The notes: generated by a model from the sequence alone, not told the origin. 64,000 nucleotides of DNA from Pseudomonadota bacterium (GCA_025355245.1 JANXZZ010000270.1:1-64000), one strand, 5' to 3'. Counted from the stretch's first letter, positions 26,233 to 53,769 are shown. Numbers and translations are program-made.

Positions 26233-26243
26233 TTCGAGTCTCC

Positions 26244-27794
26244 CTACTCCAGGGCGATGCGCCTGAGCGCACTCGCCAGCAGCCGGTCCGCGCTCGTCCC
26301 GATCTGTGGACCGAGCGCGAGCCCCGACACCCAGTGCGGCGGCAGGCCCTCCGCGCCATAGAGCGCGCCGGCGAGACTGCCGAGCAGTGCGCCGTTGGCA
26401 TCGGCATCGAGCCCGAGGTTCACGGCGCCGAGCACAGTATCGCGATACTGCATGCCGCGGGCCAGCGCCCAGAGCGCGAGGGCGAGGCTGTCGAGCGCGG
26501 TGCCGCCCGCGACCGGCACGAACCCGGGGACTCGCCAGCTGCCGGCCGCCACCGCCGCCACCTCGCGCCTGAGCGGCCGGCGCTGCCAGAGGCCGGCGAC
26601 GGGCGTGAAATCGGGCGCCACCAGCGCCTGCCGCGTCGCGCCCTGCAGCGCGCCAACCGTCAGCGCCCCGACGTAGCGACACGCATCGAGCACCACGGGA
26701 GCCTGGTGGGTCGGGCGCGCGACCTCCGCCGCGAGCTCGATCGCGGCCTCGGGGTCGCTCAGCGCGAACGCGGCGGCGACTCCCGCGCGGACCAGCGGCT
26801 CCGTGTCGGCGCGCGCGGGATCGTGGGAACCGGCGAAAGGATTGCCGCTCCACTGCGCCTGGGCGATGGCCTTGGCGGTCGATGCGGTGATGCCGAGGCA
26901 GTGCCCGGTCGCGGAGCCGTAACCCTCGCGCTGCCAGCGGAACAGCCGGCCGACGAAGTCGCGTGCGTCGAAGCCGTCGCTCTCGGCCAGGCTCTCCGCG
27001 AGCAGCAGCGCGACCGCGGTGTCATCGGACCACGCGCCGCGCGGCAGCTCGTAAGGTCCGCCGCCGAGCAGGTCGCCGAGCGGCGTGAACGAGCCCGGGC
27101 GCCGGTGCTGCGCGGGCGCCGCGAGCGCATCGCCGAGCGCGAGTCCGAGCAGCAGGCCGCGATAGCGGTCCTTGAGTCGGTCCGCGACCTCGGCCGCCCG
27201 CGCCGGGCGAGCGGGCTCGGGCCGCTCACGCCGCGGTGCGGCCGGACCGTCCCGCTCGCACCACGCACGGACGTAGCTGGCCTGGGCGGCCGTCTCCGGG
27301 CTGCGCGGCCAGTCGCGATCGCGCCCTGCGGCCTTCCATAGGCGGTCGAGTTCCGCGAGCGCCCGCGCGCCGTCGCCGAGGCGCTCGGCGAGGTAGCAAC
27401 CGACGACCGTCCCGGTACGGCCGATCCCGGCGCGGCAATGAATGTAGAGGCAATGGCCGCCCGCGAGCGCCGCGTCGATTTCCGCCAGGATCTCGCGCAT
27501 CTCCTCCCTTGAGAGCGGCAGGCCGTGGTCCGCGACCGGGTAGCGGGAATATCTGACGGCGCCACCCGCATCCTGGTCGGTCGGCCCGGGCAGGAGCTCG
27601 TCGTACTCCGGCAGCTCACCGGGCCAGGTGAGGTCGATGAACCAATCGATGCCGAGCGCGAGCAGCGATCCGATGCGCGCGGTCGCGTAGCTCGGCTCCA
27701 CGTGTCCGGGATAGGCGCCGGCGAGGAAGCGCCCGGACTCGACCCAGTAGGTCCCCGGCGGCGGCGTGCTAGCGGGGGACTGCGCGGCGCTCAC
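26244..27794 (-). CDS. Dual-specificity phosphatase / ADP-ribosylglycohydrolase fusion
   Basis: A 516-aa two-domain protein. Residues ~1-170 form a protein tyrosine/dual-specificity phosphatase with the P-loop [21 protein letters not shown] (CX5R) and an upstream acid loop around [11 protein letters not shown]. Residues ~200-516 are a DraG-type ADP-ribosylglycohydrolase: [15 protein letters not shown], the Mg-binding [14 protein letters not shown] and [22 protein letters not shown]. Both catalytic sites look intact. It may erase ADP-ribose and phosphate marks on the same target, or process ADP-ribose 1''-phosphate-like molecules; this is inference. It starts at GTG overlapping the ttcA stop (GTGA). 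Confidence 0.9.
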
Positions 27795-28687
27795 TCGGCG
27801 GCCCCGACCTCCGCAGGCGCGGTCGGCGCGAACGCGCGCCGATCCTCGAGGCTCGCGAAATCAAACAGCCGGCGGTCCGCGAGCTGCGAGGGCGCGACGT
27901 CGGTCAGTGCCGCGAACACCGATTCGACGCGGCCGGGGTGCTCGCGCTCCCAGTCGCGCAGCATCCGGCCGGCGCGCTCGCGCTCGAGGTTTGCCTGCGA
28001 GCCGCACAGCGTGCACGGGATCAGCGGAAATCGCCTGGCGCGCGCATAGCGCGTGATCGCGCGCTCGGTCACGTAGGCGAGCGGGCGGATCACGATGTGG
28101 CGCCCGTCGTCGGAAAGCAGTTTGGGCGGCATCGCCTTCAGCTTGCCGCCGTGAAAGAGGTTGAGAAAGAAGGTCTCGAGGATGTCGTCGCGGTGGTGGC
28201 CGAGCGCGATCTTGGTGATGCCGTTTTCCGCAGCGTAGCGGTATAGCGCGCCGCGACGCAGGCGCGAGCACAGCCCGCACATGGTCTTGCCCGCGGGAAT
28301 GACCCGCTTGACCACGCGGTAGGTGTCCTGCTCGATCACGTGCCAGGGGACGCCGAGCCGGGTCAGGTAGTCGGGCAGCACGCGCTCGGGAAAGCCGGGC
28401 TGCTTCTGGTCGAGGTTGACCGCGATGAGCTCGAAGCGGACCGGCGCGCTGCGCTGCAGCGACAGCAGCAGATCGAGGAGCGTGTAGGAATCCTTGCCGC
28501 CCGACAGGCACACCATCACGCGATCGCCGTCGCGGATCATGGCGTAGTCGTCGATCGCCTTGCCGACGAGGCCGCGCAGTTCCGCCTGCAGGCGCTTGAA
28601 GGTCCTCGAAGCGCGCACGGGATCGGCGGCGACGGAGGGTCGGGCCGCGGGCGTCACACGCTCGGGATGAAGGACGACGGCGGACAT
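27791..28687 (-). CDS. ttcA: tRNA 2-thiocytidine(32) synthetase TtcA
   Basis: A 298-aa enzyme that thiolates C32 of some tRNAs using ATP and an Fe-S cluster. The PP-loop is [19 protein letters not shown]. The two cysteine pairs are [11 protein letters not shown] and the C-terminal [14 protein letters not shown], as in Ttc[19 protein letters not shown] is another family block. E. coli TtcA has 311 aa. ATG 28687 is preferred to 28726, which overlaps the upstream gene. It is the second gene of the M32-to-apt operon. Confidence 0.95.
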
Positions 28688-28697
28688 CGGCGACGCC

Positions 28698-30197
28698 TCA
28701 GCGCGGTTCCAGGTACTTCGCTTCAAGGTACCTGAGCGCGGGCGCGGCTGACAGTGGCCTGTCGGTCGCTTCCTTGACGAGGTCCTGGACGGTCAGTTTG
28801 GCGCCCGAGGAATGCACCCGCTCGCGCAACCACGTGAACAGGCCCTCGAACTGCCCGCGCGAGATTTCCTCGTCGAGGTTCTCGTGCGCGGCGCGGAGCT
28901 TTTCCCACAACTGGATCGCGATCAGGGAGCCGAGCGCGTAGGCCGGGAAGTAGCCGAACTGGCCGACCGCCCAGTGCACGTCCTGCAGGCAGCCTTCGAC
29001 GTCGTTCTGGGGACGCAGGCCGAGGCGCGTCTGGGCGCTTTCGTTCCAGGCCTCCGGCAGGTCGGCGACGCTGAGGTCGCCCGACAGCAGACGCTTTTCG
29101 AGGTCGTAGCGCAGCAGGATGTGCGCCGGATAGGTGAGCTCGTCCGCGTCCGCGCGCACGAGGCTGCGCTGCACGCGCGTCAGGTGCCGGTAGAGGTTCT
29201 CGACCTCCCATTCGGGGCCGCTGACGCCGTAGTGCTTCTCGAGCAGCGGCTTCAGGTAGGTCAGGAACGGCCGGCTGCGCACCACCAGGTTTTCGATGAA
29301 CAGCGACTGGCTCTCCTCGAGCGCCATGCCGCGGTTGCGCCCGACGGGCTGGTCGCGCCAGGCCGTGGGCAAGCCGATGTCGTACATCGCGTGCCCGGTT
29401 TCGTGCAGCGCACCCAGCAGTCCCTGGAACGGGTCGCTGGCCTCGAAGCGGGTCGTGATGCGGATGTCGCCGGCCATGCCTTCCGTGAACGGATGCTCGC
29501 TCTCATCGACGCGGCCGCGGTCGAAGGGAAAGCCGACCGCCTTCATCGCCTCGAGGCAGAGCGCGCGCTGTTTCGCCGGCGCGAACTTGCCCGTCAGCGG
29601 CAGGGACGGATTCGCGGCCTGCAGCTCGATCGCCTCGCGGACCAGCGTCGGCAGCCGCCGCGCGAGCGACTTGAACAGCGTATCGATGTCGGCGGCGGTG
29701 ACGCCGGGGCTGAATTCATCGACGAGCGCATCGTAGGGTGCGAGGCCGAGGTGCTGGCCGAGGAGCCCCGCGCGGTCGCGGATCAGCTGCAGCACCTCCG
29801 CCAGGTGCGGGGCGAAATCCGCGTAGCGGTTGGTACGGCGCGCCTCGAGCCAGTAGAGCTCGGCGCGCGCGCTCGCCTTGGCGAGGCGCGAGACCAGGGA
29901 GTTCGGCATCGCGAGCGCGTGGTCGCGCTGGCGGCGCATCTCGCGCAGGTTCGCGAGCTGCCAGTCCTCGAGGCTCTGCGAGTTGGCGTGCGCGCGGTCG
30001 ATCAGGCGCGAGACCTTGGGCGAACCCAGGATCGCGTGGCACTCGGTCTCGAGCGCGGCCAGCTGCTCGCCGCGGACCTCGGCGCTGCCGCGCGGCATCA
30101 TGACGGCGGAGTCCCAGCGCAGGAGCGCGAGCGCGCCGCGAAACGCGTGCACGCGTCGAAACTCCTCCTCGAGCTGCTGGTAGGGCGAAGCGGCCAT
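28698..30197 (-). CDS. M32-family metallocarboxypeptidase
   Basis: A 499-aa carboxypeptidase Taq-type protein, matching the family's ~500 aa. The zinc site is [16 protein letters not shown] (HExxH), followed by the third ligand region [35 protein letters not shown] and [18 protein letters not shown] are typical. It removes C-terminal residues from peptides in the cytoplasm. It is the first gene of a minus-strand operon with ttcA 10 nt downstream. Confidence 0.95.
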
Positions 30198-30482
30198 GAT
30201 CCCCTTGAGGCCCGCCAGTCGCGTTGCTTGTCGGAATCAACCGCCCGAGGGAGGGCTGGTCGGAGTCGTCGCAGGCACTGGTCGGGTGACTGGCAGTGTA
30301 CCAGCGACCCCCTTCAGGGCGGCCCCTAAATGCTCATAAGGCATTGTTTATTATGCAGAAAGATAAATATTACGCTCTTGACACTGCCGCCGCCGGGTCG
30401 CGCCGGTGGGGGTGCTCGGGAGCCGACCCTTAAGGCCGCCGCGCCCGGCGTTTCAGGGGCCCTCAGGGGTCCCGCGGCAGCC
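30198..30482 (-). other. 285-nt gap holding the promoter region of the M32-apt operon
   Basis: It lies between the phaC stop and the M32 start, both minus strand. A conspicuous A+T-rich block (about 30327-30375) contains minus-strand TAATAT and ATAATA candidates for a -10 box. I see no clear -35 partner or phaC terminator hairpin with a U-tract. Confidence 0.45.
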
Positions 30483-35692: not shown

Positions 35693-36646
35693 ATGGCCGC
35701 GGCCCCGACGATCCTACCGGTGATCGACCACGCCATTCTCGGACCGCAGTTTCACGTGCCCAACCTGCGCGAGTGCCTCGCCGGCCTTGGCATCAGGGGC
35801 CCGCTGGTCGCGGTCTCGGCGGGCTGGCAGGAGCGCGAGGGTGAACTCGAGGAGTTGCGCGCCCACGTCGCCTTGCCGGTCACGGATCTCGCGCTCTACG
35901 CGCGCGCCGAAGCGGTCCATGCCGCCGATCCACCGCTGGCGGAGGCCGCACGCGAGCGCCAGGCGGAGCTCCAGGAACTGCAGGAACTCTACCGGGTGCG
36001 CCTCGGCGCGCTGATGGGCGCGGTCGTCGAGCTCAACGAGCAGAGCGGCGCCTCGGCTGCGCTGAGGCGCGCGCGGCGTGCCGCGCGCGGCGACGTGCGC
36101 CGCCTCGATCGCGCGCATCTTGCGGCGACCGCCGCCGTGCACGCCCGTTTCGCGCGCGACTGGCTCGATGGCGAGCGGCAGAGCCTCGATGCGCACCGTC
36201 GCGCGCTGGCGCTCGCCGTCGCCGCCGCCGATGCGGTGCTGGTCGCCGGCGGGCACGTCGCGGTGCTGCTCAACCGCCTGCGTCTCTTCGGCTTCGCCGA
36301 GCTCGTTCGTGGCAAAACACTGATCGCCTGGTCGGCGGGCGCGATGGCCCTGAGCGACCGGGTGGTCCTGTTCCACGACCGGCCGCCGCAGGGCGCGGCG
36401 CACGCCGAGCTCCTCGAGGGCGGGCTCGGGCTCATTCCGGGCGTTGTCGCGCTGCCGTACGCCCACGAGCGGCTTGCGCTCGAAGACCCGGAGCGCGTGC
36501 GCGAATTCGCGCAGCGCTTCGCACCCGCGAAGTGCCTGACGCTCGAGCACGGCAGCCTGCTGCGCTGGCACGCAGGGCGCATCGTCGAGGCGCGCGACGT
36601 CAAACGCCTGGCCCGCTCGGGCCAGGCCTTCGAGCTTGCGCCATGA
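35693..36646 (+). CDS. S51-like / type 1 glutamine amidotransferase-like protein
   Basis: A 317-aa protein. The C-terminal half has VLVAGGHVAVLLNRLRLFGF, KTLIAWSAGAMALSDRVVLF and GLGLIPGVVALPYAHERL. The SAGA nucleophile elbow and these blocks resemble the peptidase S51 fold (dipeptidase E, cyanophycinase). The N-terminal ~130 residues are Glu/Arg/Ala-rich and helical, an unusual extension (ERQAELQELQELYRVRLG). The predicted serine nucleophile is W-S-A-G-A. No signal peptide. First gene of a five-gene cluster; the next gene overlaps by ATGA. The substrate is unknown; acidic or amide-linked peptides are possible. Confidence 0.75.
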   Translation: MAAAPTILPVIDHAILGPQFHVPNLRECLAGLGIRGPLVAVSAGWQEREGELEELRAHVALPVTDLALYARAEAVHAADPPLAEAARERQAELQELQELYRVRLGALMGAVVELNEQSGASAALRRARRAARGDVRRLDRAHLAATAAVHARFARDWLDGERQSLDAHRRALALAVAAADAVLVAGGHVAVLLNRLRLFGFAELVRGKTLIAWSAGAMALSDRVVLFHDRPPQGAAHAELLEGGLGLIPGVVALPYAHERLALEDPERVREFAQRFAPAKCLTLEHGSLLRWHAGRIVEARDVKRLARSGQAFELAP

Positions 36647-37776
36647 GCAAGACGCTCGCCGAACTCCTCGCGCACGGGCCTCCGGACCGCGAGTCGCTCG
36701 ATGCCTTCGTCGCCGACCACGACGTCCCGCTGGTCGACCGCGATGGCGTGACGTTCCTGTTTCGCGGCGAGGCTGACGCGGTGTTCCTGCGGCTGTTCAT
36801 CTCGGGGCTGCCGGCCGCGCAGCCGCTCGAGCGCGTCGCGGGCAGCGAGCTGTGGCTCCTCCGGTTCGCGCTGCCGGCCGAGTCGCGTTTCGAGTACAAG
36901 TTCGAGGTGCAGCGCGGCGGCGGCACGGAGTGGATCACCGACCCCTTGAATCCCAACCGCGCGGCCGACCCCTTCGGTGCGAATTCGGTATGCCAGGGCT
37001 TCGGCTACCTGCCGCCGGAATGGACTCTGCCGGACGCGGCGGCGCGCACCGGCAGCTTCGAGGAATTGGCGATCGATTCCAGGCATCTCGGCCGACGCCG
37101 GCTGCCGCTGTACCTGCCGGCGCGCTTCCGGCGCTCGCGGCGCTATCCGCTCCTGGTGCTGCACGACGGCTCGGACTACGTCCGCTACGCGCAGCTGAAA
37201 ACGGTCCTCGACAACCTGATCCACCGGCTGGAGATCCCGCCGCTCGTCGTCGCGCTCACCGACTCCCCCGACCGCCTGCACGAGTATGTGGGCCTCGATG
37301 CGCACGCGGACTTCCTGGTCAGGGAACTCCTGCCGGCGCTGGCCGAGCGCCTGCCGCTCGACCCCGACGTCACCGCGCGCGGCGCGATGGGCGCGAGTCT
37401 CGGCGGGGTCGCGGCGCTGCACGCCGCGTGGCGGCACCCGGGGAGCTTCGGGCGACTGCTGCTGCAGTCGGGTTCCTTCGCGTTCACCGACATCGGCGAG
37501 AACAAGCGCGGCCCCGTGTTCGAACCCGTGGTGCGCTTCATGAACACCTTCCGCGCGAGCCCGGGGCGCCCGGCCGAGCGGATTTATGTCAGCTGCGGCA
37601 TCTACGAGTCGCTCATCTACGAAAACCGCTCGCTGGTGCCGCTCCTGACCCGGCAGCGCATCCCGGTGCGCTACGAGGAAGCCCGCGACGGACATAACTG
37701 GCAGAACTGGCGCGACCGGCTGCGTGCCGGACTCACTTATCTGTTCCCGGGACCCCTGTGGATGGTGTACGAATAG
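36643..37776 (+). CDS. Alpha/beta-hydrolase esterase with N-terminal E-set domain
   Basis: A 377-aa protein. Residues ~35-130 look like a carbohydrate-binding-like E-set (VTFLFRGEADAVFLRLFISG, FRFALPAESRFEYKFEV with the 'eYkf' strand). The C-terminal part resembles the Fes/esterase D fold: YPLLVLHDGSDYV, the nucleophile elbow GAMGASLGGVAALHAAWRHPG and the C-terminal His region ARDGHNWQNWRDRL. The arrangement resembles enterochelin esterases and starch-associated esterases. It is coupled to the S51-like gene (ATGA); no signal peptide. It may cleave an ester in the cluster's product. Confidence 0.8.
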   Translation: MSKTLAELLAHGPPDRESLDAFVADHDVPLVDRDGVTFLFRGEADAVFLRLFISGLPAAQPLERVAGSELWLLRFALPAESRFEYKFEVQRGGGTEWITDPLNPNRAADPFGANSVCQGFGYLPPEWTLPDAAARTGSFEELAIDSRHLGRRRLPLYLPARFRRSRRYPLLVLHDGSDYVRYAQLKTVLDNLIHRLEIPPLVVALTDSPDRLHEYVGLDAHADFLVRELLPALAERLPLDPDVTARGAMGASLGGVAALHAAWRHPGSFGRLLLQSGSFAFTDIGENKRGPVFEPVVRFMNTFRASPGRPAERIYVSCGIYESLIYENRSLVPLLTRQRIPVRYEEARDGHNWQNWRDRLRAGLTYLFPGPLWMVYE

Positions 37777-37802
37777 CGTCGGGGAGGCGCGGAGGAGTGG
37801 CT

Positions 37803-39038
37803 ATGGGGGACGTGACGCGACGCATCGGGCTCTCACTCGGTGCGGACATCTGCTGGCCGCGCTGCTACGAGGAAATCCTCGGGCGGCTCGACCTCAGGAT
37901 CCCGTGGCAGGGCGACACGCTGCGCTTCGCGGTCGAGCGGGTGACGATCGAGCCCTTCGACCTCAAGCAGCCGGTGCGCTACGACGTCGTCATCGATCGC
38001 CTGACGCACTGGTACCACACGAGCCGCGAGTGGATCAAAAAGGCGGTCGTGCTCGACGGGCTCTACGTCTTCAACAACCCGTGGTCGATCCAGGCGAACG
38101 AGAAGCACACCACCTACGCGGCGATGACGCGGCTCGGGCTCAAGATCCCTGATACCTGGATGATTCCGCCGAAATCCTATGACAAGTCGGCCGACCTGAA
38201 GCCGACGCTCGAGCGCTACGCGCAGCTGTTCGACATTGCGGCGATCGGCAAGAAGATCGGCTATCCGCTCTTCATGAAGCCCTACGACGGTGGCGGCTGG
38301 GTCGGCGTGACCAAGATCGACGACGAGGCAGCCCTCAAGGCAGCCTACGAGGCGAGCGGCACGAAGATCATGCACTTGCAGGCGGGCGTCATTCCCTACG
38401 ACCGCTTCGTGCGCTGCATCGGCCTCGGGCCGCAGACGCGCGTCGTGAACTATGATCCGGGTGCGCCGCTGCACGATCGTTACCGCATGGACCTCAATTT
38501 CATCAGCGCCGCGCAGCAGGCGGAGCTCGAGGCGATCACGCTCACGATCAACGCGTTCTTCGGCTGGGACTTTAATTCCTGCGAGGCGCTGCTGAGGGGC
38601 GATGACTGGCATCCGATCGATTTCGCAAACGCCTGCCCCGACTCGCAGGTGACCTCGCTCCACTACCACTTCCCCTGGCTGGTAATTGCGAACCTCCGCT
38701 GGTCGCTGTACTGCGCAGCGACCCGCCGACCCATGCGGCAGAACCTGGACTGGCAGCCGTTCTTCGAGGCGGCACGCGACAACACCGGTTACCCGGCAAG
38801 GATCGCCGCCTACGCGCGCCTCGCACGCGCGTACTTCGAGACGGATCGGTTCACCGAATTCTGCGCGACGCACCTCGGCCATCTCGATGCCGTGGCGAGC
38901 GAATTCTTCGGCAGCTCGGTCGCCCGGGAAGCGGTCCGCGCCAAGGTGCAGGCGCTGTTTCCGGCACACGAGGTCGATGAGTTCACGGAACTCTTCTTCG
39001 GCCGGATTCAGGAGTGGCGCCGCCAGGTCGGCGCCTAG
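37803..39038 (+). CDS. ATP-grasp ligase of unknown substrate
   Basis: A 411-aa protein. ATG 37803 has GGAGGAG upstream. It begins MGDVTRRIGLSLGADICWPRCYEEIL, followed by an ATP-grasp fold: LFMKPYDGGGWVGVTKI (P-loop lysine and Gly-rich loop), KIMHLQAGVIPYDRFVRCIGLG, INAFFGWDFNSCEALL and HPIDFANACPDSQVTSL, where the D...N pair should bind metal. The RimK/glutathione-synthase type of fold is likely. It presumably makes an amide or thioester-like bond. It is in the middle of the cluster, with esterases on each side. Confidence 0.8.
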   Translation: MGDVTRRIGLSLGADICWPRCYEEILGRLDLRIPWQGDTLRFAVERVTIEPFDLKQPVRYDVVIDRLTHWYHTSREWIKKAVVLDGLYVFNNPWSIQANEKHTTYAAMTRLGLKIPDTWMIPPKSYDKSADLKPTLERYAQLFDIAAIGKKIGYPLFMKPYDGGGWVGVTKIDDEAALKAAYEASGTKIMHLQAGVIPYDRFVRCIGLGPQTRVVNYDPGAPLHDRYRMDLNFISAAQQAELEAITLTINAFFGWDFNSCEALLRGDDWHPIDFANACPDSQVTSLHYHFPWLVIANLRWSLYCAATRRPMRQNLDWQPFFEAARDNTGYPARIAAYARLARAYFETDRFTEFCATHLGHLDAVASEFFGSSVAREAVRAKVQALFPAHEVDEFTELFFGRIQEWRRQVGA

Positions 39039-39052
39039 ACGGCCAAGCGACC

Positions 39053-39784
39053 ATGCAATCACAACACTGGAACTGGGCGTCGCAGCGACTGCCCGAGCCC
39101 GCGCGCGTGGTGCGCTGGGGGCACTTCGGGACGCCGCTGCTGCTGTTTCCGACGGCGGGCGGCGACTACGAGGAGGTCGAGCGCTTTCACCTGATCGGCG
39201 CGCTCAAGGATCTCATCGACGGCGGCCGCATCAAGGTCTATTCGATCGACAGCGTCGCCGGCAAGCACTGGCTGCGCGGCACGGACTCCCCCGAATACTG
39301 CTCGAAAGTGCAGAACCTGTTCGACGATTTCGTCTACAGCGAGGTGGCGCCGCTCATCCGCAACGACTGCAAGTCGCCGGATATCGAGATCGTCGCGGCC
39401 GGCGCCTCGATCGGCGCGTTCAACTCGGTCGCGACGGTCTGCCGGCATCCGGACGTGTTCAAGCTCGCGATCGCGATGAGCGGCACCTTCGACCTGTCGA
39501 AGTATCTGAACGGGCATATGAACCTCGACTTCCACGTCTCATCGCCCATCCACTACCTGCCCGGCCTCGAGGAAGGCCCGCGACTCGCGCGCCTGCGCGA
39601 GCGCTACATCGTATTGCCCACCGGCCAGGGACAGTGGGAGGACATCGGCGAGTCGTGGCGCCTGGCGAACCTGCTCGGCCGCAAGGGCATCCCCAATCGC
39701 GTCGACCCGTGGGGCCGGGAGTGGGACCACAACTGGGTCACGTGGCGGGCGATGCTGCCGAAGTACGTGGAGGAGTTCACATGA
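39053..39784 (+). CDS. Alpha/beta-hydrolase-fold esterase
   Basis: A 243-aa protein. It opens MQSQHWNWASQRLPEPARVVRWGHFGTPLLLFPTAGGDYEE, with the oxyanion-hole strand LLLFPTAGG. The nucleophile is in IVAAGASIGAFNSVATVCRHP (G-x-S-x-G), and the C-terminal GREWDHNWVTWRAMLP supplies the His. This resembles the esterase D family seen as a distinct 'esterase' next to ATP-grasp genes. No signal peptide. The cupin gene overlaps its stop by ATGA. The 5' gap to the ATP-grasp gene is 14 nt. Confidence 0.8.
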   Translation: MQSQHWNWASQRLPEPARVVRWGHFGTPLLLFPTAGGDYEEVERFHLIGALKDLIDGGRIKVYSIDSVAGKHWLRGTDSPEYCSKVQNLFDDFVYSEVAPLIRNDCKSPDIEIVAAGASIGAFNSVATVCRHPDVFKLAIAMSGTFDLSKYLNGHMNLDFHVSSPIHYLPGLEEGPRLARLRERYIVLPTGQGQWEDIGESWRLANLLGRKGIPNRVDPWGREWDHNWVTWRAMLPKYVEEFT

Positions 39785-40140
39785 CGACGCCACGGCTCAT
39801 CGACTTCCGGGAGCAGGCGACGCCGGTCGAGGCGCCCTTCGATCCTGCCAGGCTGGTCGCAGGGGCGCCGCGAGCGACCGTCGACAATCGCTACTCGGAC
39901 CCCTCGCAGCAGTTCCACTGCGGCATCTGGGCCAGCACGCCGGGAACGTGGCGCGTCAGCTACAGCGAGCACGAGTTCTGCCACCTGCTGGAGGGCCGGG
40001 TGCGCCTGACGGGCGACGACGGGCACTCGGTCGAGTTCCGGGCAGGGGACGCCTTCGTGGTCCCGGCCGGTTTTTCCGGTACCTGGGAGACGATCGAGGC
40101 GGCCCGCAAGTACTACTCGCTCTACGAGCGCAGCGCCTAG
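39781..40140 (+). CDS. Cupin-domain protein (EutQ-like)
   Basis: A 119-aa single-cupin protein. Motif 1 is around CHLLEGRVRLTGDDG and motif 2 around GDAFVVPAGFSGTWETI, as in DUF861/EutQ-like cupins. HEFCHLLEG supplies likely metal ligands. Such small cupins act as isomerases, lyases or ligand sensors; nothing more specific can be said. It is the last gene of the cluster, coupled to the esterase by ATGA, which suggests it handles the same compound. Confidence 0.85.
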   Translation: MTTPRLIDFREQATPVEAPFDPARLVAGAPRATVDNRYSDPSQQFHCGIWASTPGTWRVSYSEHEFCHLLEGRVRLTGDDGHSVEFRAGDAFVVPAGFSGTWETIEAARKYYSLYERSA

Positions 40141-40292: not shown

Positions 40293-40326
40293 AATTATGG
40301 TCAATGCCAGATAGGCGAAACGGTTG

Positions 40327-41304
40327 ATGAAAAGCGCGATTTCCCTGGCGGCGCTCGCAGGCGCCCTGCTTCTGACCTGGAGCGTGGGTTCCGGGGCGAC
40401 CGCGATCGGCGATTCCGTGACCGGCCTCCCCGACGCGACGCTGCGCGCCGGCGGCGCGCCATCCACCTCGAGCAAGGCCTCCGCCCGGCGCGCGGTCGCG
40501 CGTGGCCACCGGCGGCGCAGCGGAATCGATGAGCCGGCGCTGCGCTCAAGTGCGGCGCTGGTGGTCGATGAGTCGACCGCCGCGATCATCTTCTCCAAGC
40601 ACGCCGACGTGCCGACGCCGATCGCCTCGATCACGAAGCTGATGACGGCGCTTGTCGTCCTCGACGCGAACCAGTCGCTCGACGAGACCGTCGAAATCAC
40701 GCGCGACGACCAGGTGCTCGGCAAGCCTACGACCTCGCGGCTCACGGTAGGCACCGCGCTCAGCCGCGGCGACCTGCTGCACCTCGCGTTGATGTCCTCC
40801 GAGAACCGCGCCGCGAACGCGCTCGGACGCAACTATCCAGGCGGCCTGCCGGCCTGCGTCGCCGCGATGAATGCCAAGGCGCGAGCGCTCGGCATGACGA
40901 GTGCGCACTTCGTCGAGCCGACGGGCCTCTCGAGCGACAACATCGCGAGCCCGGAGGATCTCTCCAAGCTCGTGATCGCGGCCTCGCAGAACGCCTCGAT
41001 CCAGAGCTACTCGACCGACAGCCGCTACATCGTGCCGGTGGGGCGCCACATGCTCGAATTCCGCAACACCGATTCGCTGGTCTCGAGCCCAAGCTGGAAT
41101 ATCGTCGTGCAGTAGACCGGCTACATCGCCGAGGCCGGCAAGTGCCTGGTGATGAAGGCGATCATCGAGGGCCGCGCGATCGTCATCGTGCTGCTCGATT
41201 CGGTCGGCAAGCAGAGTCGCCTCGCCGACGCACGCCGCATCAAGAAGTGGATGGAGTCGCACCTGAGCAGCGAGACGCCGCGCCTCGCCTCGCGCAGGGC
41301 CTGA
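40327..41304 (+). pseudogene. D-alanyl-D-alanine endopeptidase (PBP7-type), interrupted by an in-frame TAG
   Basis: This frame encodes a low-molecular-weight PBP (PbpG/PBP7-type) of 325 codons. It has a signal peptide, the SxxK motif SITK (residues 101-104) with the acylated serine, and SxN in SSEN (158-160). At codon 263 the sequence is CAG TAG ACC GGC: a TAG stands where the family has AAG, the lysine of the third catalytic motif KTG. The frame then continues in perfect register (TGYIAEAGKCLVMK, then IVIVLLDS) to TGA 41302-41304. Everything else looks intact, so a recent nonsense mutation or a base error is likely. Truncation at 262 aa would remove catalysis of peptidoglycan cross-link cleavage. 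Confidence 0.9.
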
Positions 41305-41361: not shown

Positions 41362-44172
41362 TCATTCCTTGGCCGCCAGGATCGCCTGCCAGTTCAGCAG
41401 CGCATTCCACAATAGCCTCTGGTCGCCGCGATTGAGGTCGCGGTGCAGCGGGTTGAAGTTGAACGCGACCACATGCCCGTGGCCGACCGGCATGTCGAGA
41501 ATCGCCGGGCGACCGATGAGGTTGGTCTCGCCCCACGCCTGCCCGCTGACGACGAACGGCGCGCCATCGCGATCGCCCCACTCGAGTACGACGCCGCGCG
41601 GGTCGAAGGGACCGTCGAGGCAAGTGGTGCAGTACGAGGCGCGCAGCCAGCGGCGCGGCACCGCGTAGAGCGGGAAATTCTGGCGGAACACGTGTGTGCG
41701 CGGCGCGTAGCCGTAGGCGATCGGGTGCTCGGGCCTCGCGAAGGAGACCCGGAGGTGGGCGCCGGGAGTGCGCGTGACGGCATCGTGGGAGGCGGCTGCC
41801 GCCGCCGCGCCGCCACCGGCGGCACTGCGCGGAACGCCGCCCTCGTCGCGGCGCACGCCGCGCACTATCCCGCCCTCGAGCGGCAGCATCGAGCCAGTGC
41901 CGAGGGTCACGAACAGGCCACCGCCTTCCGTGAATTTCTGGATCTCGGCGAGGCCTTCCCAGCCGATGCCGCCGGTGATGTCCTCGGATGCGGCCGGCGT
42001 GCCGTGGCTCGGGGTCGCCGCCGTTTTCTTGAACGGCATCGGCCCCCAAGCCTTCGGGATGCCCTGCACCTGCTCGGCGAATTCGAGATCGACGTTGCCG
42101 TACAGGAGCACGTCGAAGCGCTGTTTCAGCTTGCCCGCGCGGATGTCCTCGTCGCGCACGTAGACGTAGGGGATGTGGCGCTGGTCGAAAGAATAGCGGA
42201 TCCAGGCGATCGAATCGGTGTCCGCCCACGGCACCCACACGCCGACGCGCGGCGCTGGCGCCGCGTGCCGCGCGACCGCCGGCATCGTCGCGGCCCCGGT
42301 GAAGTTGAGGCCAAGCGCATCGCCCGTCGCGCGCAGGCGTTCGATGAGGCCGGGCTGGGAGCGCAGCAGCCACGACCCGGCGGGGTAGTCGATGCCGTCG
42401 ACCGAGAACGCGCGCTCGGCAATCTCAAGCGCAGTGCCCGCGAGCCGGTAGCGCGCTTCGAGAAGTTCTTCCTGGCCCGTGTCGCGCAACAGATAGACCG
42501 CCGCCGGCCCGGTCACGCCACCCGGCACGTGCGGAGCCACGGTGAGGGCGACGAGCGGCGCATCGCGCACGCTCGCATCGGCGGTCGGAACGACGGTCAG
42601 GTGGTAGTGCGCCGGCAGCTCCCAGGAAACGTCGTCGTAGGGATCGGCGCCATCCTTGGGATAGGCCTGCGCGCTTAGCAGGTCGACCGCGTAGTTGCGG
42701 TACGGCTGGTCGAGCCGGACGACGTAGGTCCCGGCCGGATAGGCGCCGTCCGCGAGCTTGAGCGGCGCGGTCGCGCGATGCACCTCGATGCGCTGCGAAA
42801 GGAGGCGCGCCACGAGCGCCGCGACGCGCGTCGGGTCGCCCTGGTCGTCCGCAATCAGGTAGGCGTACGGCGGGTGCTCGAGGCCGGCGTGCAGCGAGTT
42901 GTAGCTCTTGCGATACCAGTTGCGCAGGTAATCCTTGGCGTGCGAGGCGACCTGGTCGAGCGCGGCGAGCGCGCCGGTTTCGTTGTAGTTGACGTTGTCG
43001 CGCGCCGACCAGAGGAAGGGCGTGCTCGGCGGCGGCACCACCCGGTACCACTCGCGTGTGATCGCATCGTCGGGCGCCGTGCGCAACATCGTTTCCGCGC
43101 TGCCGTTGCCCATGGTCTCGTAGCCGCGGCCGATCGAGTTGTGGTTCATCGCGACCGAATCGGAATAAAGGTGCGCGAAGCCATCGCCGAAGTTCCAGGT
43201 CGACACGCCCGGCATGCCGAGCGCGGTCATCGCCTGCACCTCGTGGAAGCTGAGTTCCAGAAACTCGGTGAAGGTGATCGGATCGATGTTCGGGTTGTAC
43301 GGACCGGTGCCGTTCCACGTCATCAGCAGCGCCACCTCCTCGTGCATGTCGTGCACGACGGTCGGGTGCCAGTCGTGGAACATGTTGTGCACGGCTTTGG
43401 TGGTCTCGTGCGTCTGCTGGTGCGCGTCGCGGTTGATGTCGACGAAGGCGTACTTCGACCAGTAGGGCGGTGCCTGGCGCGGCAGCGTCGCGCGGTCAGT
43501 CTTGCCCTTGAGGAAGCGGTAGAACCACTCGACCTGCTTGTCGCGCCCGTCCGGGTTCGAGACCGGGTTGATGAGCACCACCGTGCTCTCGCGGATGCGG
43601 CGGATCATCGGCTGTTCGGAGACCGCGAGCCGATAGGCGAGCTCGAGCACCGACTCGGTCTCGCCGGTCTCATCCGAATGCGGACCCACATTGAAGTAGT
43701 AGATCGGGCGCCCGTCCGCCACGAGCCGGTCGGCGGCGGCCGCATCGATGCGCCTGGGATCGCCGAGCAGCGCCGTCGTCTCCTTGAGCCGCGCGAGGTT
43801 CTTGATTCCGTCCTCGTCGGCAATCGCGAGCATGACGATGTCGCGGCCTTCCTCCGAGCGCCCGATCGTGAACATGCGCACGCGCGGCGAGGCGGCGGCC
43901 AGCGCCCGGCAGTAGGCGTAGGCCCTGGCGGAGTCGACGAACTCCCCGGGCGCGCCGGGAATGCGGTGCAGGAACGCCCGCGGCGAGGGGACGCTCGCCG
44001 ATGCCGGCAGGTACGCCACCCACGGCGAGAGGTATCGGGGCTCGGTTGTCGCGGCCGCGATCTCCTCGATCGAACCCGCTTCGGCGGTGTCGGGCCCGGT
44101 GTCGACCGGCGCCGCGAGGCTGCCGACCGACGCGGCGAGTAGCGAGGCGAGCAGCAAGACGCGATTCGGCAT
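41362..44172 (-). CDS. Exported M14-family metallopeptidase, large multidomain
   Basis: A 936-aa protein with signal peptide MPNRVLLLASLLAASVGSLAAP. Residues ~70-330 form a zinc carboxypeptidase domain: FTIGRSEEGRDIVMLAI, NVGPHSDETGETESVLELAY (HxxE zinc ligands), INPVSNPDGRDKQ and HDWHPTVVHDMHEE, a likely third His. The rest (~550 aa) includes a long region of unclear fold and a C-terminal part resembling a GATase/ThuA-like domain (FTEGGGLFVTLGTGSM, HVVAFNFNPLHRDLNRGDQRLLWNALLNWQ). It is periplasmic or secreted and removes amino acids from peptide or peptidoglycan-like substrates. It lies between the PBP7 gene and the ATP-grasp gene. Confidence 0.85.
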   Translation of the reverse strand: MPNRVLLLASLLAASVGSLAAPVDTGPDTAEAGSIEEIAAATTEPRYLSPWVAYLPASASVPSPRAFLHRIPGAPGEFVDSARAYAYCRALAAASPRVRMFTIGRSEEGRDIVMLAIADEDGIKNLARLKETTALLGDPRRIDAAAADRLVADGRPIYYFNVGPHSDETGETESVLELAYRLAVSEQPMIRRIRESTVVLINPVSNPDGRDKQVEWFYRFLKGKTDRATLPRQAPPYWSKYAFVDINRDAHQQTHETTKAVHNMFHDWHPTVVHDMHEEVALLMTWNGTGPYNPNIDPITFTEFLELSFHEVQAMTALGMPGVSTWNFGDGFAHLYSDSVAMNHNSIGRGYETMGNGSAETMLRTAPDDAITREWYRVVPPPSTPFLWSARDNVNYNETGALAALDQVASHAKDYLRNWYRKSYNSLHAGLEHPPYAYLIADDQGDPTRVAALVARLLSQRIEVHRATAPLKLADGAYPAGTYVVRLDQPYRNYAVDLLSAQAYPKDGADPYDDVSWELPAHYHLTVVPTADASVRDAPLVALTVAPHVPGGVTGPAAVYLLRDTGQEELLEARYRLAGTALEIAERAFSVDGIDYPAGSWLLRSQPGLIERLRATGDALGLNFTGAATMPAVARHAAPAPRVGVWVPWADTDSIAWIRYSFDQRHIPYVYVRDEDIRAGKLKQRFDVLLYGNVDLEFAEQVQGIPKAWGPMPFKKTAATPSHGTPAASEDITGGIGWEGLAEIQKFTEGGGLFVTLGTGSMLPLEGGIVRGVRRDEGGVPRSAAGGGAAAAAASHDAVTRTPGAHLRVSFARPEHPIAYGYAPRTHVFRQNFPLYAVPRRWLRASYCTTCLDGPFDPRGVVLEWGDRDGAPFVVSGQAWGETNLIGRPAILDMPVGHGHVVAFNFNPLHRDLNRGDQRLLWNALLNWQAILAAKE

Positions 44173-44210: not shown

Positions 44211-45428
44211 CTAGCGGGCGAGCAGCCGCAGCTGGTCACCAACTTCATCCGCAATCGCGAGCGTGGTCGCGAGATCCGGATGGCGCAGCATCAGGAAGCC
44301 GTCGGAGACGAGCGTCTGGCGCCAGTTGCGGCGCCGCGCGCCGACCGGTGAGAGATTGTTCCAGACGATTGTCGCGCCGTGTCTGCGGTTGATGGCCTCG
44401 AGCCCCTCGATCGCGTGGATCCTGCCCTGGCCTTCGGCGCGCTTGAACACCATCGCGACGTTGTACTTGCGCTCGATCCGCGCCTCGAAGGCACCGTGCG
44501 TGACCGCGCGCGCCCACTCCCGGAACACGTCGAAGTCGCAGGCGTAGTTCATCTGGTCGACCTGGTGGGCCCCCGGCGGGCGCGCGGCGACCTCGCCGAA
44601 CACGACCTCGCCGTCGGCCTTGCGGTACCACTCCATGTGCGTGAAGCCACGTTCGAAGCCGAGCGCGCGAATCACCTCGAAGCCCATGCGGACGCCGGCG
44701 GCGAGCGCGGCGTCGTCGGTGTCTCTGAGCGCGATCACCTGCGGGCTGATCCACTCGTTGGAGCGCGCGATCAGGGGCCGCGGGCGATACCAGGCAACGT
44801 TGTAGTAGGCGATCTGTCCGTCGATCGTGACGGTGTCAAAGGTGTACTCCTCGCCGTCAATGAACTCCTCGACGCTGACGATGGGTACGTGGGCGACACG
44901 CGGCAGCACGTCCCGGAGTTCGTCGGGCGTGTCGCAGCGGTAGGTATCGGCGGAGCCGGCGCCGGCGATCGGCTTGACGATCACGGGGAAACCGATGCGC
45001 TCGGCCGCCTCCCAGCACTCGGCCACCGAGTGCGCGGCGACGTGCCGGGGCGTGCGGATGCCCGCGGCATCGAGCTTCTGCTTCATGACCTCCTTGTCAC
45101 GATACGGCACCGTGTCCGCAACGCTGAGGCCGGGAGCACCGAAGGCTTCGCGAAGCCGCGCCGCCAGCAGCATCAGCGGCTCCCACAGCGATTCGACGCG
45201 GTCGATGCGCCGGCCCGCGAGCGCGGCGCGCAGTTCCTCGAGCGTGCGAGCCTCGTTCCACAGGGACCCCACCTGTACGTAGGCCGCGAGTGCGTGGCGG
45301 GTCCGCTCGGTCAGGGCGCTCGCCGGCTGGTCGCCGACGCCGATCACGGTCGCCCCGACCTCCGCGAGACCGCGCGTGAATTCGGGCATATCGGTCGGAT
45401 ATCCCGGCGAAAGCATCAGCACGTTCAT
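44211..45428 (-). CDS. ATP-grasp ligase, paralogue A beside glgA
   Basis: A 405-aa ATP-grasp protein. It begins MNVLMLSPGYPTDMPEFTRGLAEVGATVIGVGD; ATG 45428 is chosen because it matches the paralogue MNVILVEPAFPYN at 46984. ATP-grasp blocks are GFPVIVKPIAGAGSADTYRC (P-loop Lys and Gly-rich loop), VEEFIDGEEYTFDTVTIDG and GFTHMEWYRKADGEVVFGEVAARPPGAHQVDQMNY, the metal-binding end. It is a carboxylate-amine/thiol ligase of the carbamoyl-phosphate-synthetase-like branch. It is divergent from glgA over a 67-nt gap. Confidence 0.87.
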   Translation of the reverse strand: MNVLMLSPGYPTDMPEFTRGLAEVGATVIGVGDQPASALTERTRHALAAYVQVGSLWNEARTLEELRAALAGRRIDRVESLWEPLMLLAARLREAFGAPGLSVADTVPYRDKEVMKQKLDAAGIRTPRHVAAHSVAECWEAAERIGFPVIVKPIAGAGSADTYRCDTPDELRDVLPRVAHVPIVSVEEFIDGEEYTFDTVTIDGQIAYYNVAWYRPRPLIARSNEWISPQVIALRDTDDAALAAGVRMGFEVIRALGFERGFTHMEWYRKADGEVVFGEVAARPPGAHQVDQMNYACDFDVFREWARAVTHGAFEARIERKYNVAMVFKRAEGQGRIHAIEGLEAINRRHGATIVWNNLSPVGARRRNWRQTLVSDGFLMLRHPDLATTLAIADEVGDQLRLLAR

Positions 45429-45495
45429 GGTCACCCCCGGCCCCCGATGCTAGCGCAACGCCCCGGCAAAACGCCTTCGCTATACTCGAAAAGCC

Positions 45496-46956
45496 GTGTC
45501 GTACCGCGTTCTCTTCGTGACCGCCGAATACACCCCGCTCGCGAAGACCGGGGGCCTCGCGGACGTATCGGCGGCATTGAGCCGTTTCCTGCACGATCGC
45601 GGCGACGACGTGCGGGTGTTCCTGCCGCTCTACCGGCAGATCGCGGAGCGCCCGTTCCCCCGCCAGCCGGTCGATTTCCTGCAAAACCTAAGTCTCTCGA
45701 TCGGCAGCCGGGAGTACCGGTACTCCATCCTCTGCGGACAGGCGCCGGGGTCGACTCTCGAGCTCTACTTCGTCGACTGCCCGGCCCTCTACGACCGGCC
45801 GGGCATCTACACCCCCGACGCCGACGAGCATCACCGCTTCCTGTTGCTGACGCGCGCGGCGTTCGAGTGCAGCCAGCGCATGGGCTTCGCGCCGCACATA
45901 CTGCACTGCAATGACTGGCACACCGCCTTTGGCCCCCTGTTCCTGAGGACCGTCTATGCGTGGGACCGCTTGTTCAGCGGCACGAAGTCGGTCCTGACGA
46001 TTCACAACGTCGGCTACCAGGGCGTGTTCGCGGCCGCCGACGTCGCGGCGCTCGGCCTCGGCGAGGCGGCCTGGCTGGTCCACCAGGAGGACCTCGTCGC
46101 GGGGCGCATCAATTCGCTGCTGCACGGCATCCTCTATGCCGACCTCGTCACGACCGTGAGCCCGAACTACGCCCGCGAGATCTGCACGCCGGAGTACGGC
46201 GTTGGTCTCGACGGCTTCCTGCGCATGCGCGGCGACCGCCTCGTCGGGATCCTGAACGGTGTCGACTATGCGGAGTGGAACCCGGAGACGGACCGGTACG
46301 TGCCCCTGCATTTCTCGGCCGCGGCGCCCGCCGGCAAGGCCGCCGTCAAGAGCGCGTTCACCGAGCGCCTGCGCCTGCCGCGGAACCCGGACACGCTGTT
46401 CGTCGGCCTCGTCAGCCGGCTGGTCGCCCAGAAGGGCATCGAGCTCCTGCCGCTCGTGCTGCCCGGGCTGCTGCGCGCGCGCAACCTGTGTTTCGTCGCG
46501 GTCGGCAGCGGCGAGCCCCGCTACGAGGATGCGCTGGCAAGCTTGCAGCGCGCGTTCCCGGATCGCGTCGTCTACCACCGCGGCTACAGCGAAGAACTCG
46601 CGCACTGGATCGAGGCAGCGTCGGACGTGTTCCTCATGCCCTCGCTTTATGAACCCTGCGGCCTCAACCAGATGTACAGCCTCAAATACGGGACCGTGCC
46701 GATCGTGCGTCGCACCGGCGGACTCGCGGACTCCGTGTCGCAGTACTCACCGGCCAGCGGACGGGGGACCGGTATCGTGTTCGAGCACTTCGACTCGACG
46801 GCACTGCGCTGGGCGCTCGAGACCGCGCTCGATCTGTTTGCGCGCAAGGACCACTGGCGACGGATCATCGCCAACGGCATGGCCGAGGATTTCTCATGGA
46901 CGCGCCAGGGCGCGCTCTACATCGACCAGTACCGGCGCATGGCCGGCGCCGACTGA
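45496..46956 (+). CDS. glgA: Glycogen synthase GlgA
   Basis: A 486-aa ADP-glucose-dependent alpha-1,4-glucosyltransferase. The ADP-glucose site KTGGLADVSAALSRFL (K-x-G-G-L) is at residues ~15-30. LHCNDWHTAFGPLFLRTVYAW and VSPNYAREICTPEYGVGLDGFL are classic GT5 blocks, and the C-terminal SLYEPCGLNQMYSLKYGTVPIVRRTGGLADSV is the donor-binding domain. The start is GTG 45496. TATACT (45481-45486) ends only 9 nt before it, so the mRNA may be nearly leaderless; I see no good -35. The two flanking genes are ATP-grasp paralogues. Confidence 0.96.
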   Translation: MSYRVLFVTAEYTPLAKTGGLADVSAALSRFLHDRGDDVRVFLPLYRQIAERPFPRQPVDFLQNLSLSIGSREYRYSILCGQAPGSTLELYFVDCPALYDRPGIYTPDADEHHRFLLLTRAAFECSQRMGFAPHILHCNDWHTAFGPLFLRTVYAWDRLFSGTKSVLTIHNVGYQGVFAAADVAALGLGEAAWLVHQEDLVAGRINSLLHGILYADLVTTVSPNYAREICTPEYGVGLDGFLRMRGDRLVGILNGVDYAEWNPETDRYVPLHFSAAAPAGKAAVKSAFTERLRLPRNPDTLFVGLVSRLVAQKGIELLPLVLPGLLRARNLCFVAVGSGEPRYEDALASLQRAFPDRVVYHRGYSEELAHWIEAASDVFLMPSLYEPCGLNQMYSLKYGTVPIVRRTGGLADSVSQYSPASGRGTGIVFEHFDSTALRWALETALDLFARKDHWRRIIANGMAEDFSWTRQGALYIDQYRRMAGAD

Positions 46957-46983
46957 GCGCGCCCGCGGAAAGGTTAGAGGCAC

Positions 46984-48204
46984 ATGAACGTAATCCTCGT
47001 CGAGCCCGCGTTCCCCTACAACCAGCGTGAATTCGCCCGCGGCCTCGCGACTGCCGGCGCGCGCGTGATCGGCATCGGCGAGCGTCCCGTCACGCACCTC
47101 GATCCGGAGCTCGCGAGCTGGCTCACGCACTACGAACAGGTCTCCTCGGTCGTCAACGAAGGCGCGCTGCTCGCGGCAGTGCGCCGCGTGCAGCAGCGCG
47201 TGCGGGTCGATCGGCTGGAGGCGACCGTCGAGGCGCACATCATGAGCGCGGCGACCGTGCGCGAGGCCGCCGGCATCCAGGGCACCTCGGTGCGCACGGC
47301 GTGGCTGTGTCGTGACAAGCCGACCATGAAGGAGGCGCTGCGCCAGGCGGGGGTGCCGTGCGCACAGTCGATCAGCGCGGAGGATGGCGCTACCGCGCGC
47401 GCCTTCGCCGCGAGCGTCGGCTTCCCGCTGATCGTGAAGCCGCGCGCCGGCGCCGGCGCATCGGGCACGCGGCGGGTCGACAACAATGCCGAGCTCGACG
47501 CGGCGCTCGCCGCGGCCGGGGTCGGCCGCGGCCAGTCCGTCGCCGTCGAGGAGTTCATCGAGGGGCACGAAGGCTTCATCGACACTATCTCGATCAAGGG
47601 CGAGGTCGCGCACGAGTTCATTTCCCACTATTTCCCGGGCGTGCTCGTCGCCATGCGCGAGCGCTGGATCTCGCCGCAGATCGTCGCAACCAACCGTCTC
47701 GATGCGCCGGGTTACGAGGAAGTCCGCGCGATGACGCGCCGGGTGATCGAGGTGCTCGGCATCGGCACCTCGGCGACGCACATGGAGTGGTTCTTCGGCC
47801 CCAAGGGCCTCAAGTTCTCCGAAATCGGCTGCCGGCCGCCGGGCGTGGGCCAGTGGGACGTGTACGCGGCGGCGAACGAGTTCGACATCTACCGCGAGTG
47901 GGCGATGGCGATCGTGCACGGCCGCCGCGGGACCGAGCCCTCGCGGCGCTACTCTTGCGGGATGATTGCGCTCAGGCCCGACCGCGATGGCCGCATCAGC
48001 GGCTACGACGGCGCCGAACAAGTGTTCGCGGCGTTCGGCGAGTGGATCGTCGCCTCGCACCTGCCGCCGCCGGGAACGCCGACGCAGCCGGTCGAGGCGG
48101 GCTACATGGCGAACGCATGGATCCGGATCCGCCACCCCGACTACGACCGGCTGCGCTCGATGATGGACACCATCGGCCAGACTCTGAAGGTGCGCGCTAG
48201 TTGA
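46984..48204 (+). CDS. ATP-grasp ligase, paralogue B downstream of glgA
   Basis: A 406-aa ATP-grasp protein clearly paralogous to the gene at 44211. It shares the N-terminus (MNVILVEPAFPYNQREFARGLATAGARVIGIGE), GFPLIVKPRAGAGASGTRRV, AVEEFIEGHEGFIDTI, and ATHMEWFFGPKGLKFSEIGCRPPGVGQWDVY. ATG has GGAAAGG upstream; the gene lies 27 nt after glgA, so they are probably co-transcribed. No signal peptide. Its tail overlaps the convergent LEA-like gene by 8 nt. The substrate is unknown; a link to glycogen is suggested only by position. Confidence 0.87.
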   Translation: MNVILVEPAFPYNQREFARGLATAGARVIGIGERPVTHLDPELASWLTHYEQVSSVVNEGALLAAVRRVQQRVRVDRLEATVEAHIMSAATVREAAGIQGTSVRTAWLCRDKPTMKEALRQAGVPCAQSISAEDGATARAFAASVGFPLIVKPRAGAGASGTRRVDNNAELDAALAAAGVGRGQSVAVEEFIEGHEGFIDTISIKGEVAHEFISHYFPGVLVAMRERWISPQIVATNRLDAPGYEEVRAMTRRVIEVLGIGTSATHMEWFFGPKGLKFSEIGCRPPGVGQWDVYAAANEFDIYREWAMAIVHGRRGTEPSRRYSCGMIALRPDRDGRISGYDGAEQVFAAFGEWIVASHLPPPGTPTQPVEAGYMANAWIRIRHPDYDRLRSMMDTIGQTLKVRAS

Positions 48205-48658
48205 GCGTGAAGGTTCCGCGCTGATCGAAGGGAACGGAGCTCAGGAACGTGAGCTCGGTCTCGACCTTGCCCGTCAGCCGGTACTCGATCGGCTGCGAAC
48301 GGTCCTTGAGCTTCGGCAGGATCCTGAGCAGCGTCGTCGCGAGGTCAGTCGTCACGATCGTCTCGAATTCAGCCGAGCCAAGCGCAGGGACGGTGAACGG
48401 TGCCGCGCTCGCGCCGTAGCCGAAGTCCTCGCCCGCCACCTGCATCGTGAAGCTGAGGCCGCGGATCGGCAGCGCCCGGTCGTTCGGATTGTCGACACGC
48501 ACACGGACGCGGAAGCGCTGCTCCAGGAGCTGCGTGCCCTCGACCTCGACGCCGATCACCGACAGGTGCGGATGCTCGAAGTGCGGCGCGAGGCTGCAGG
48601 CGCCCGCGTCGAGCGCGAGGACCGCGACGAAAAGAAGCGAAGCCGCACGATTCAGCAT
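48197..48658 (-). CDS. LEA type 2 / WHy-domain exported protein
   Basis: A 153-aa protein. ATG 48658 gives a signal sequence MLNRAASLLFVAVLALDAGACS, possibly a lipoprotein signal with a weak lipobox. The mature part SVIGVEVEGTQLLEQRFRVRVRVDNPNDRALPIRGLSFTMQVAGEDF has the 'NPN...lpi.gl.y.l.v.g' pattern of the LEA14-like/WHy domain, a small beta-sandwich found in desiccation- and stress-related proteins. The function is probably membrane- or protein-protective. It is 69 nt after malQ, perhaps in the same operon. Confidence 0.82.
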   Translation of the reverse strand: MLNRAASLLFVAVLALDAGACSLAPHFEHPHLSVIGVEVEGTQLLEQRFRVRVRVDNPNDRALPIRGLSFTMQVAGEDFGYGASAAPFTVPALGSAEFETIVTTDLATTLLRILPKLKDRSQPIEYRLTGKVETELTFLSSVPFDQRGTFTLN

Positions 48659-48727
48659 GATCCGATTTCCTCGCCCGACCCATTGCAGCCATTCTGACAC
48701 TACGCGGCGCGCGGTGTTCCCGGCGAC

Positions 48728-50188: not shown

Positions 50189-50212
50189 GGCGGGAGACCG
50201 CGAGCGCTGAGC

Positions 50213-51481: not shown

Positions 51482-51557
51482 TCGTTCGCCGGCACCATGA
51501 CGGGCCTATGTTACCGTGCATCGGCCGCGCCGCAACCGCGGTGCACGCAGCATCGCC

Positions 51558-53735: not shown

Positions 53736-53769
53736 ACCGGCCGCAGCACGCACCGTCCGGCGCCCACGG

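Follow-up and report, generated by a model that had tools for sequence, protein, structure and literature searches.

Operons of the Aravind type, predicted in 2009, reportedly combine several amide ligases (amidoligase, ATP-grasp and GCS2 families) with hydrolases. Operons for N-acetylglutaminylglutamine amide (NAGGN), like other ATP-grasp operons for peptide solutes, are small and cytoplasmic and make amides with ATP-grasp ligases. Bacterial glycogen, for its part, is usually regarded as a plain glucose polymer. Here we analyze a 64,000-nucleotide stretch from a Pseudomonadota bacterium (GCA_025355245.1, JANXZZ010000270.1:1-64000; hereafter the window), in which four co-directional genes, A to D, encode an S51-fold protein, two esterases (B and D) and a divergent ATP-grasp ligase (C). 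A–D belong to a set of enzymes, some making bonds and others breaking them, that is widespread, has apparently not been described and lies within a glycogen cluster. This raises the possibility that amino-acid-like groups decorate the storage sugar of bacteria or are coupled to it.

The cassette has the same style as the Aravind-type operons. NAGGN synthesis relies on an amidotransferase resembling asparagine synthetase and on an ATP-grasp enzyme to which an acetyltransferase is joined; neither is recurrent among the neighbors of the cassette. The preliminary description of this DNA knew of no characterized system with such content, and we likewise found no matching characterized pathway. In the open-licence literature searched, we found neither a description of an ATP-grasp/glycogen/esterase gene cluster, although an earlier mention elsewhere is possible, nor a link between glycogen synthase and amidoligase-type operons.

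Gene content of the cluster

The genes of the cassette, together with a cupin gene (E) and a family GT5 glycogen synthase gene, are arranged in the window as follows.

A: 35693-36646, + strand, S51-fold protein of the peptidase E/cyanophycinase type (Peptidase_S51, PF03575, 26.2 bits against a cut-off of 23.9; predicted structure)
B: 36643-37776, + strand, enterochelin-esterase-like/CE1-type alpha-beta hydrolase with an E-set-like N-terminal domain (PF00756, 84.9 bits, cut-off 22)
C: 37803-39038, + strand, divergent ATP-grasp ligase with a predicted RimK/LysX/ArgX-like fold and an additional C-terminal helical region (predicted structure, fold search)
D: 39053-39784, + strand, second PF00756 esterase, distantly related to B (Pfam match)
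E: 39781-40140, + strand, EutQ-like Cupin_3 protein, a resident of the glycogen locus (PF05899, 93.5 bits)
2a: 44211-45434, - strand, ATP-grasp protein, its gene oriented away from that of glycogen synthase (PF02222/PF13535 over cut-off)
GlgA: 45496-46956, + strand, GT5 glycogen synthase (TIGR02095, 503.5 bits against a cut-off of 328)
2b: 46984-48204, + strand, ATP-grasp protein immediately after GT5 (PF02222)

The five open reading frames (ORFs) A–E are intact and co-directional, with both of the 4-nt overlaps (36643/36646 and 39781/39784) that the preliminary description had reported. It had treated A–E as a single unit. In our analysis E falls outside, and the cluster extends to two further ATP-grasp genes, 2a and 2b, which flank the GT5 gene (44211-48204). 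Congeners lacking C have the same glycogen locus with the cupin, minus A, B, C, D, 2a and 2b. Therefore, A–D, 2a and 2b form an accessory group that is acquired or lost together, as one block, and the cupin, which these congeners retain beside the GT5/M14 genes, is a resident gene of the glycogen locus. We accordingly rejected E as a member of the pathway. Several of the C-lacking congeners retain an M14 peptidase gene between the cupin and GlgA. Of the gene content first described, the conserved block A–D stands, while the glycogen locus, 2a and 2b, and the GCS2 ligase of a second variant of the cluster (below) had all been missed.

Conservation of the A–D block

Among a sample of 60 genomes of relatives, 13 contain a strong match to C, and B is found in exactly the same 13 (chance value 2e-13; this and the following chance values are uncorrected for relatedness and are optimistic, because the genomes are related). 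The order A-B-C-D is kept in the C-positive relatives; two loci (L024 and L025) have no D match in the stretch read. Matches to the 2b family occur in 11 of the 13 C-positive and in none of the 47 C-negative relatives (chance value 2e-10), and the fragmented genome G285 has 2b matches at the level of paralogues only. GCS2 ligases are present in all 13 C-positive relatives versus 20 of the 47 C-negative ones (chance value 1e-4). GT5, by comparison, is found in 48 of the 60 relatives, independently of C (p = 0.43), as expected for a housekeeping glycogen synthase. C is rare in the class at large: a class-wide draw returned it from its own genome only (1/274). Zero matches to C were found in a plasmid collection.

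A scan of named genomes gave 573 candidate stretches encoding a relative of C, and the best 80 loci, those most similar to the query, were analyzed. Neighbors were found by clustering the ORFs of these loci, and counts are given per 77 of the 80. The loci span Pseudomonadota, Myxococcota, Acidobacteriota, Planctomycetota, Gemmatimonadota and Candidatus Eiseniibacteriota. B, C and D are adjacent in most of the 80 loci, A is present in 53/77, and the order A-B-C-D is conserved across phyla far above chance expectation. Genes inserted between B and C in four loci (L042, L053, L059 and L082) are not recurrent. The conserved cytoplasmic operon of ATP-grasp ligases and hydrolases proposed earlier is borne out by this cross-phylum block. 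It had been foreseen that the proposal would fall if the genes did not co-occur in other genomes; they do, both in the 13 relatives and in most of the named loci, since B, C and D cluster in most of the latter and A in 53/77.

Linkage to glycogen genes

A–D sit within a glycogen locus that reaches position 56379. GlgA, GlgB, GlgC and glucan-degrading genes lie together in 45496-56379, GlgB being assigned by homology only. Beyond 2b, the locus contains the following genes.

LEA_2 (desiccation-type) protein: 48206-48658, - strand, between 2b and MalQ
MalQ 4-alpha-glucanotransferase: 48728-50188, - strand (PF02446, 502.5 bits)
GlgC-type glucose-1-phosphate adenylyltransferase: 50213-51481, - strand (PF00483, 211.9 bits)
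GlgB-like branching enzyme: 51516-53735, + strand (ORF named from sequence reading; 42-58% identity to GlgB of other glycogen loci)
alpha-glucan phosphorylase: 53770-56379, - strand (PF00343 and PF11897)

The linkage is not confined to the window. Recurrent neighbors at C loci are other ATP-grasp genes, GT5 glycogen synthase, GCS2 ligases, GlgC, GlgX, GlgB and MalQ, and glycogen genes adjoin the cassette in Gammaproteobacteria, Myxococcota, Acidobacteriota and others. In the A-containing variant of the cluster, 39 of 53 loci have glycogen genes close by; for long loci alone the figure is 19 of 26. The gap between GT5 and 2b is 2-30 nt in loci from Gammaproteobacteria through Myxococcota. The Myxococcota version reads FGase-GT5-2b-A-B-C-D-GCS2 on one strand with small gaps, where FGase is an N-formylglutamate-amidohydrolase-like gene. 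Myxococcota that carry the cluster encode another GlgA, more diverged, elsewhere in the genome, and the GT5 of their cluster is therefore an extra copy. In a GT5 tree the cluster type is split from these Myxococcota paralogues (support 99/95), and GlgA of cassette-free relatives falls inside the cluster-type group. In the genome of the window, one GT5 match is the sole glycogen synthase copy found (G000).

A second variant, GCS2-B-C-D-2b, lacks A. It is stand-alone, with unrelated flanks, and occurs in Alphaproteobacteria (Microvirga, Rhodobacteraceae) and some Gammaproteobacteria (Granulosicoccus).

ATP-grasp ligases of the cassette

C gives only sub-threshold ATP-grasp matches in Pfam, and none of the curated family profiles places it in a named ligase family over its cut-off. 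Its predicted structure (pLDDT, predicted local distance difference test, 88.8) matches ArgX (3vpc/3vpb) and RimK (7qyr) best among PDB folds, and also resembles LysX and Ddl. Residues K159, E261, D273 and N276 are invariant in 50 sequences; they are assigned to the nucleotide-metal site by motif and not from a complex. This structure prediction, which had been recommended as a check, upholds the reading of C as an ATP-grasp ligase with a RimK/LysX/ArgX-like fold. The concern that C might belong to a known pathway is likewise not realized, C being neither glutathione synthase nor another named ligase. Although C shares the predicted fold and the ATP-grasp ligand residues of RimK, LysX and ArgX, it scores far under the RimK cut-off (TIGR00768, 22 bits against 143.4), has the additional C-terminal helical region, and has no gene like that of the LysW carrier in its packed cluster: looked for by gene spacing, such a gene has no room, the gaps within the operon being mostly <120 nt.

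C is accompanied by further ligases. The paralogous ATP-grasp proteins 2a, 2b and 2c are 32-36% identical mutually and match PurT/PRK02186/PRK07206-like profiles; 2a is a conserved neighbor in 30/77 loci, and 2b is common to both variants (65% identical to an alphaproteobacterial copy). Both 2a and 2b give a weak partial match (~34-39 bits) to the ATP-grasp domain of cyanophycin synthetase. In the genome of the window, 2c lies on another contig, and a third contig, C228 (687-2691; L150), carries an FGase gene, named by sequence reading, directly upstream of a GCS2 carboxylate-amine ligase gene. The FGase and GCS2 families of C228 also bracket the Myxococcota version of the cluster. In Woeseiaceae-type loci (L054, L056, L092, L076, L086 and L093), a BesA/PGM1-like peptide ligase lies behind 2b; three such loci also have a PurD-like ATP-grasp protein there, giving up to six ATP-grasp-type genes around one glycogen synthase.

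Esterases B and D

B and D both belong to PF00756 and are 29% identical over 164 residues, consistent with the earlier view of two different alpha/beta-hydrolase esterases flanking the ATP-grasp gene. The catalytic residues S252, E322 and H351 are invariant across the B family; for D, the invariant residues are S119, E196 and H226. The nearest solved relatives of B are Fes (2b20) and CE1 feruloyl/acetyl esterases linked to CBM48. The Enterochelin_N domain is detected in 25/29 members of the B family and is sub-threshold in B of the window. B thus shares with Fes and the CBM48-linked CE1 esterases the esterase domain, the Ser/acid/His residues and an E-set-like N-terminal region. However, B has no visible signal peptide, lies in an operon with ATP-grasp ligases, and scores 103.2 bits against the curated Fes equivalog, whose cut-off is 222.

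A putative pathway coupled to alpha-glucan

ATP-grasp and GCS2 ligases form amides via acyl phosphates. Enzymes of the CE1/Fes type act on polyols and sugars, from which they cleave acyl groups or to which they transfer them, and GT5 enzymes add alpha-glucosyl units from ADP-glucose. We tentatively favor a reading in which A-B-C-D with 2a and 2b form an accessory cytoplasmic amide/peptide-ligase pathway coupled to alpha-glucan. The reactions and the product that we infer are the following. C, 2a, 2b, 2c and the GCS2 ligase encoded elsewhere would activate carboxylates as acyl phosphates and couple amino-acid-like units into an amide or peptide group. B, with its carbohydrate-module-like N-terminal domain, and D would transfer this group or take it off, handling it as an ester. 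An alpha-glucan or alpha-glucoside made with GT5 would be the partner or substrate, and the likely product would be its amino-acyl- or peptidyl-modified form. In the A-containing variant, the group would be joined to, or matured with, the alpha-glucan or glucoside.

What speaks most strongly for the glucan is that GT5 and 2b are coupled over deep phylogenetic distances and that Myxococcota have an extra GT5. The CBM48-linked CE1 relatives of B and the likeness of C to RimK, LysX and ArgX also count in support, as do the conserved order A-B-C-D, the occurrence of B, 2b and GCS2 alongside C in the relatives, and the glycogen genes beside most A-containing loci. Several observations weigh on the other side, foremost the free-standing GCS2-B-C-D-2b variant. 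It has glycogen genes nearby in 0/12 loci (several of the contigs being short) and no GT5 of the cluster type; because it lacks both, GT5 is dispensable for the core chemistry. In addition, a CBM_48 match in the N-terminal domain is seen in just 1/29 members of the B family. Finally, the linkage to glycogen genes may mean only co-regulation, because the GT5 is the sole synthase in this genome and is equally present in cassette-free relatives.

The main rival follows from such co-regulation, and we regard it as almost as likely: the cassette would produce a small compatible solute or storage metabolite of the peptide type by serial ATP-grasp/GCS2 ligation, its proximity to glycogen genes reflecting shared induction by stress or carbon excess. 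The compact GCS2-B-C-D-2b variant, free-standing and with no sugar genes, fits this explanation, as does the fact that all named chemistry apart from B and D is carboxylate-amine ligation; the LEA_2 gene would suit a locus that functions under stress. However, two carbohydrate-esterase-related hydrolases are core to both variants, and GT5 is tightly coupled to 2b, at gaps of 2-30 nt over a large phylogenetic distance, and is duplicated for the cluster in Myxococcota.

A bolder form of the glucan-coupled pathway seems unlikely, if conceivable. In several phyla, amino-acyl or peptidyl groups might be placed on glycogen, or a glucan-linked carrier might serve peptide assembly, giving a previously undescribed hybrid carbon-nitrogen reserve or signal polymer; the parts would be three to four ATP-grasp ligases, a GT5 synthase dedicated to the task, and two CE1-like proteins acting as an acyl transferase/esterase pair. 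More generally, amide ligases and esterases embedded so widely in glycogen loci, along with the duplicated glycogen synthase of Myxococcota, would imply either a storage glucan that is chemically modified or peptide metabolites of a new, glycan-linked class. The question is directly testable: the cassette is compact, close relatives either have the whole block or lack it, and the cultured genus Microvirga carries the five-gene variant.

Protein A and cyanophycin metabolism

The predicted structure of A (pLDDT 91) matches 6nqc, 3en0 and 6a4r in the PDB, all of them S51 proteins (peptidase E, cyanophycinases), and contains an inserted long helical hairpin at modeled residues ~80-158. The catalytic serine of the SAGA motif (Ser214) is Ser in 40/43 family members and Cys in 2. 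The canonical S51 histidine column is His in 23/43 and otherwise Asp, Gln, Ala, Asn or Glu, with Tyr in the protein of the window, indicating that the standard S51 triad is not under constraint. Residue His228 is kept in 42/43 members and Asp229 in 37/43. Hence the preliminary assignment of A as an S51/cyanophycinase-like serine hydrolase holds for the fold and the serine but not for the canonical histidine.

Close to that earlier account is a cyanophycin-like scheme, in which A degrades an isopeptide polymer that the ATP-grasp enzymes produce. The cyanophycinase/PepE fold of A and the weak match of 2a and 2b to cyanophycin synthetase are in its favor. However, the genome has a genuine cyanophycin locus on contig C277 (~24000-30300; L151), with CphA1 (1099 bits), a second CphA-like C-terminal match and, next to CphA1, a canonical S51 cyanophycinase with a normal S51 motif. 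A was therefore rejected as the cyanophycinase of this genome. The cluster itself contains no CphA1-type synthetase (ATP-grasp plus Mur-ligase) with CphB, and C has no polymerase-type ligase domain. Because the canonical histidine of A is missing in about half of the family (20/43, the window protein included) and the true locus lies elsewhere, and with a second variant that lacks A altogether, the make-and-recycle role once suggested for A is highly improbable. In the favored glucan-coupled pathway, A would instead bind or process an acidic amino-acid or peptide intermediate, and not as a standard S51 peptidase.

Two further explanations are similarly doubtful. B and D might be siderophore or feruloyl-type esterases with a catabolic or uptake role, the ligases having a separate task, given that enterochelin esterase and ferulic acid esterases are closest to B; this is very hard to reconcile with the score of B far under the Fes cut-off, with B and C being inseparable in relatives, with the lack of recurring transporter or siderophore genes among the cluster neighbors, and with our seeing no case in which the ligase genes are lost while B and D are conserved together. 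Nor is the glycogen link at all probably an insertion accident in one lineage, as its patchy presence within the genus might suggest, since glycogen genes lie beside the cassette, and GT5 beside 2b, in distant phyla.

Genes between the cupin and 2a

Two peptidase genes separate the cupin gene from 2a.

Peptidase_S11, D-Ala-D-Ala carboxypeptidase-like: 40324-41115, + strand (stop at ~41113-41115)
M14 carboxypeptidase-like protein, large and apparently carrying a signal peptide: 41362-44172, - strand

In the Peptidase_S11 frame, an in-frame TAG stands at the expected Lys of the KTG motif, and the frame is open past it. The TAG is either a nonsense change or an assembly error.

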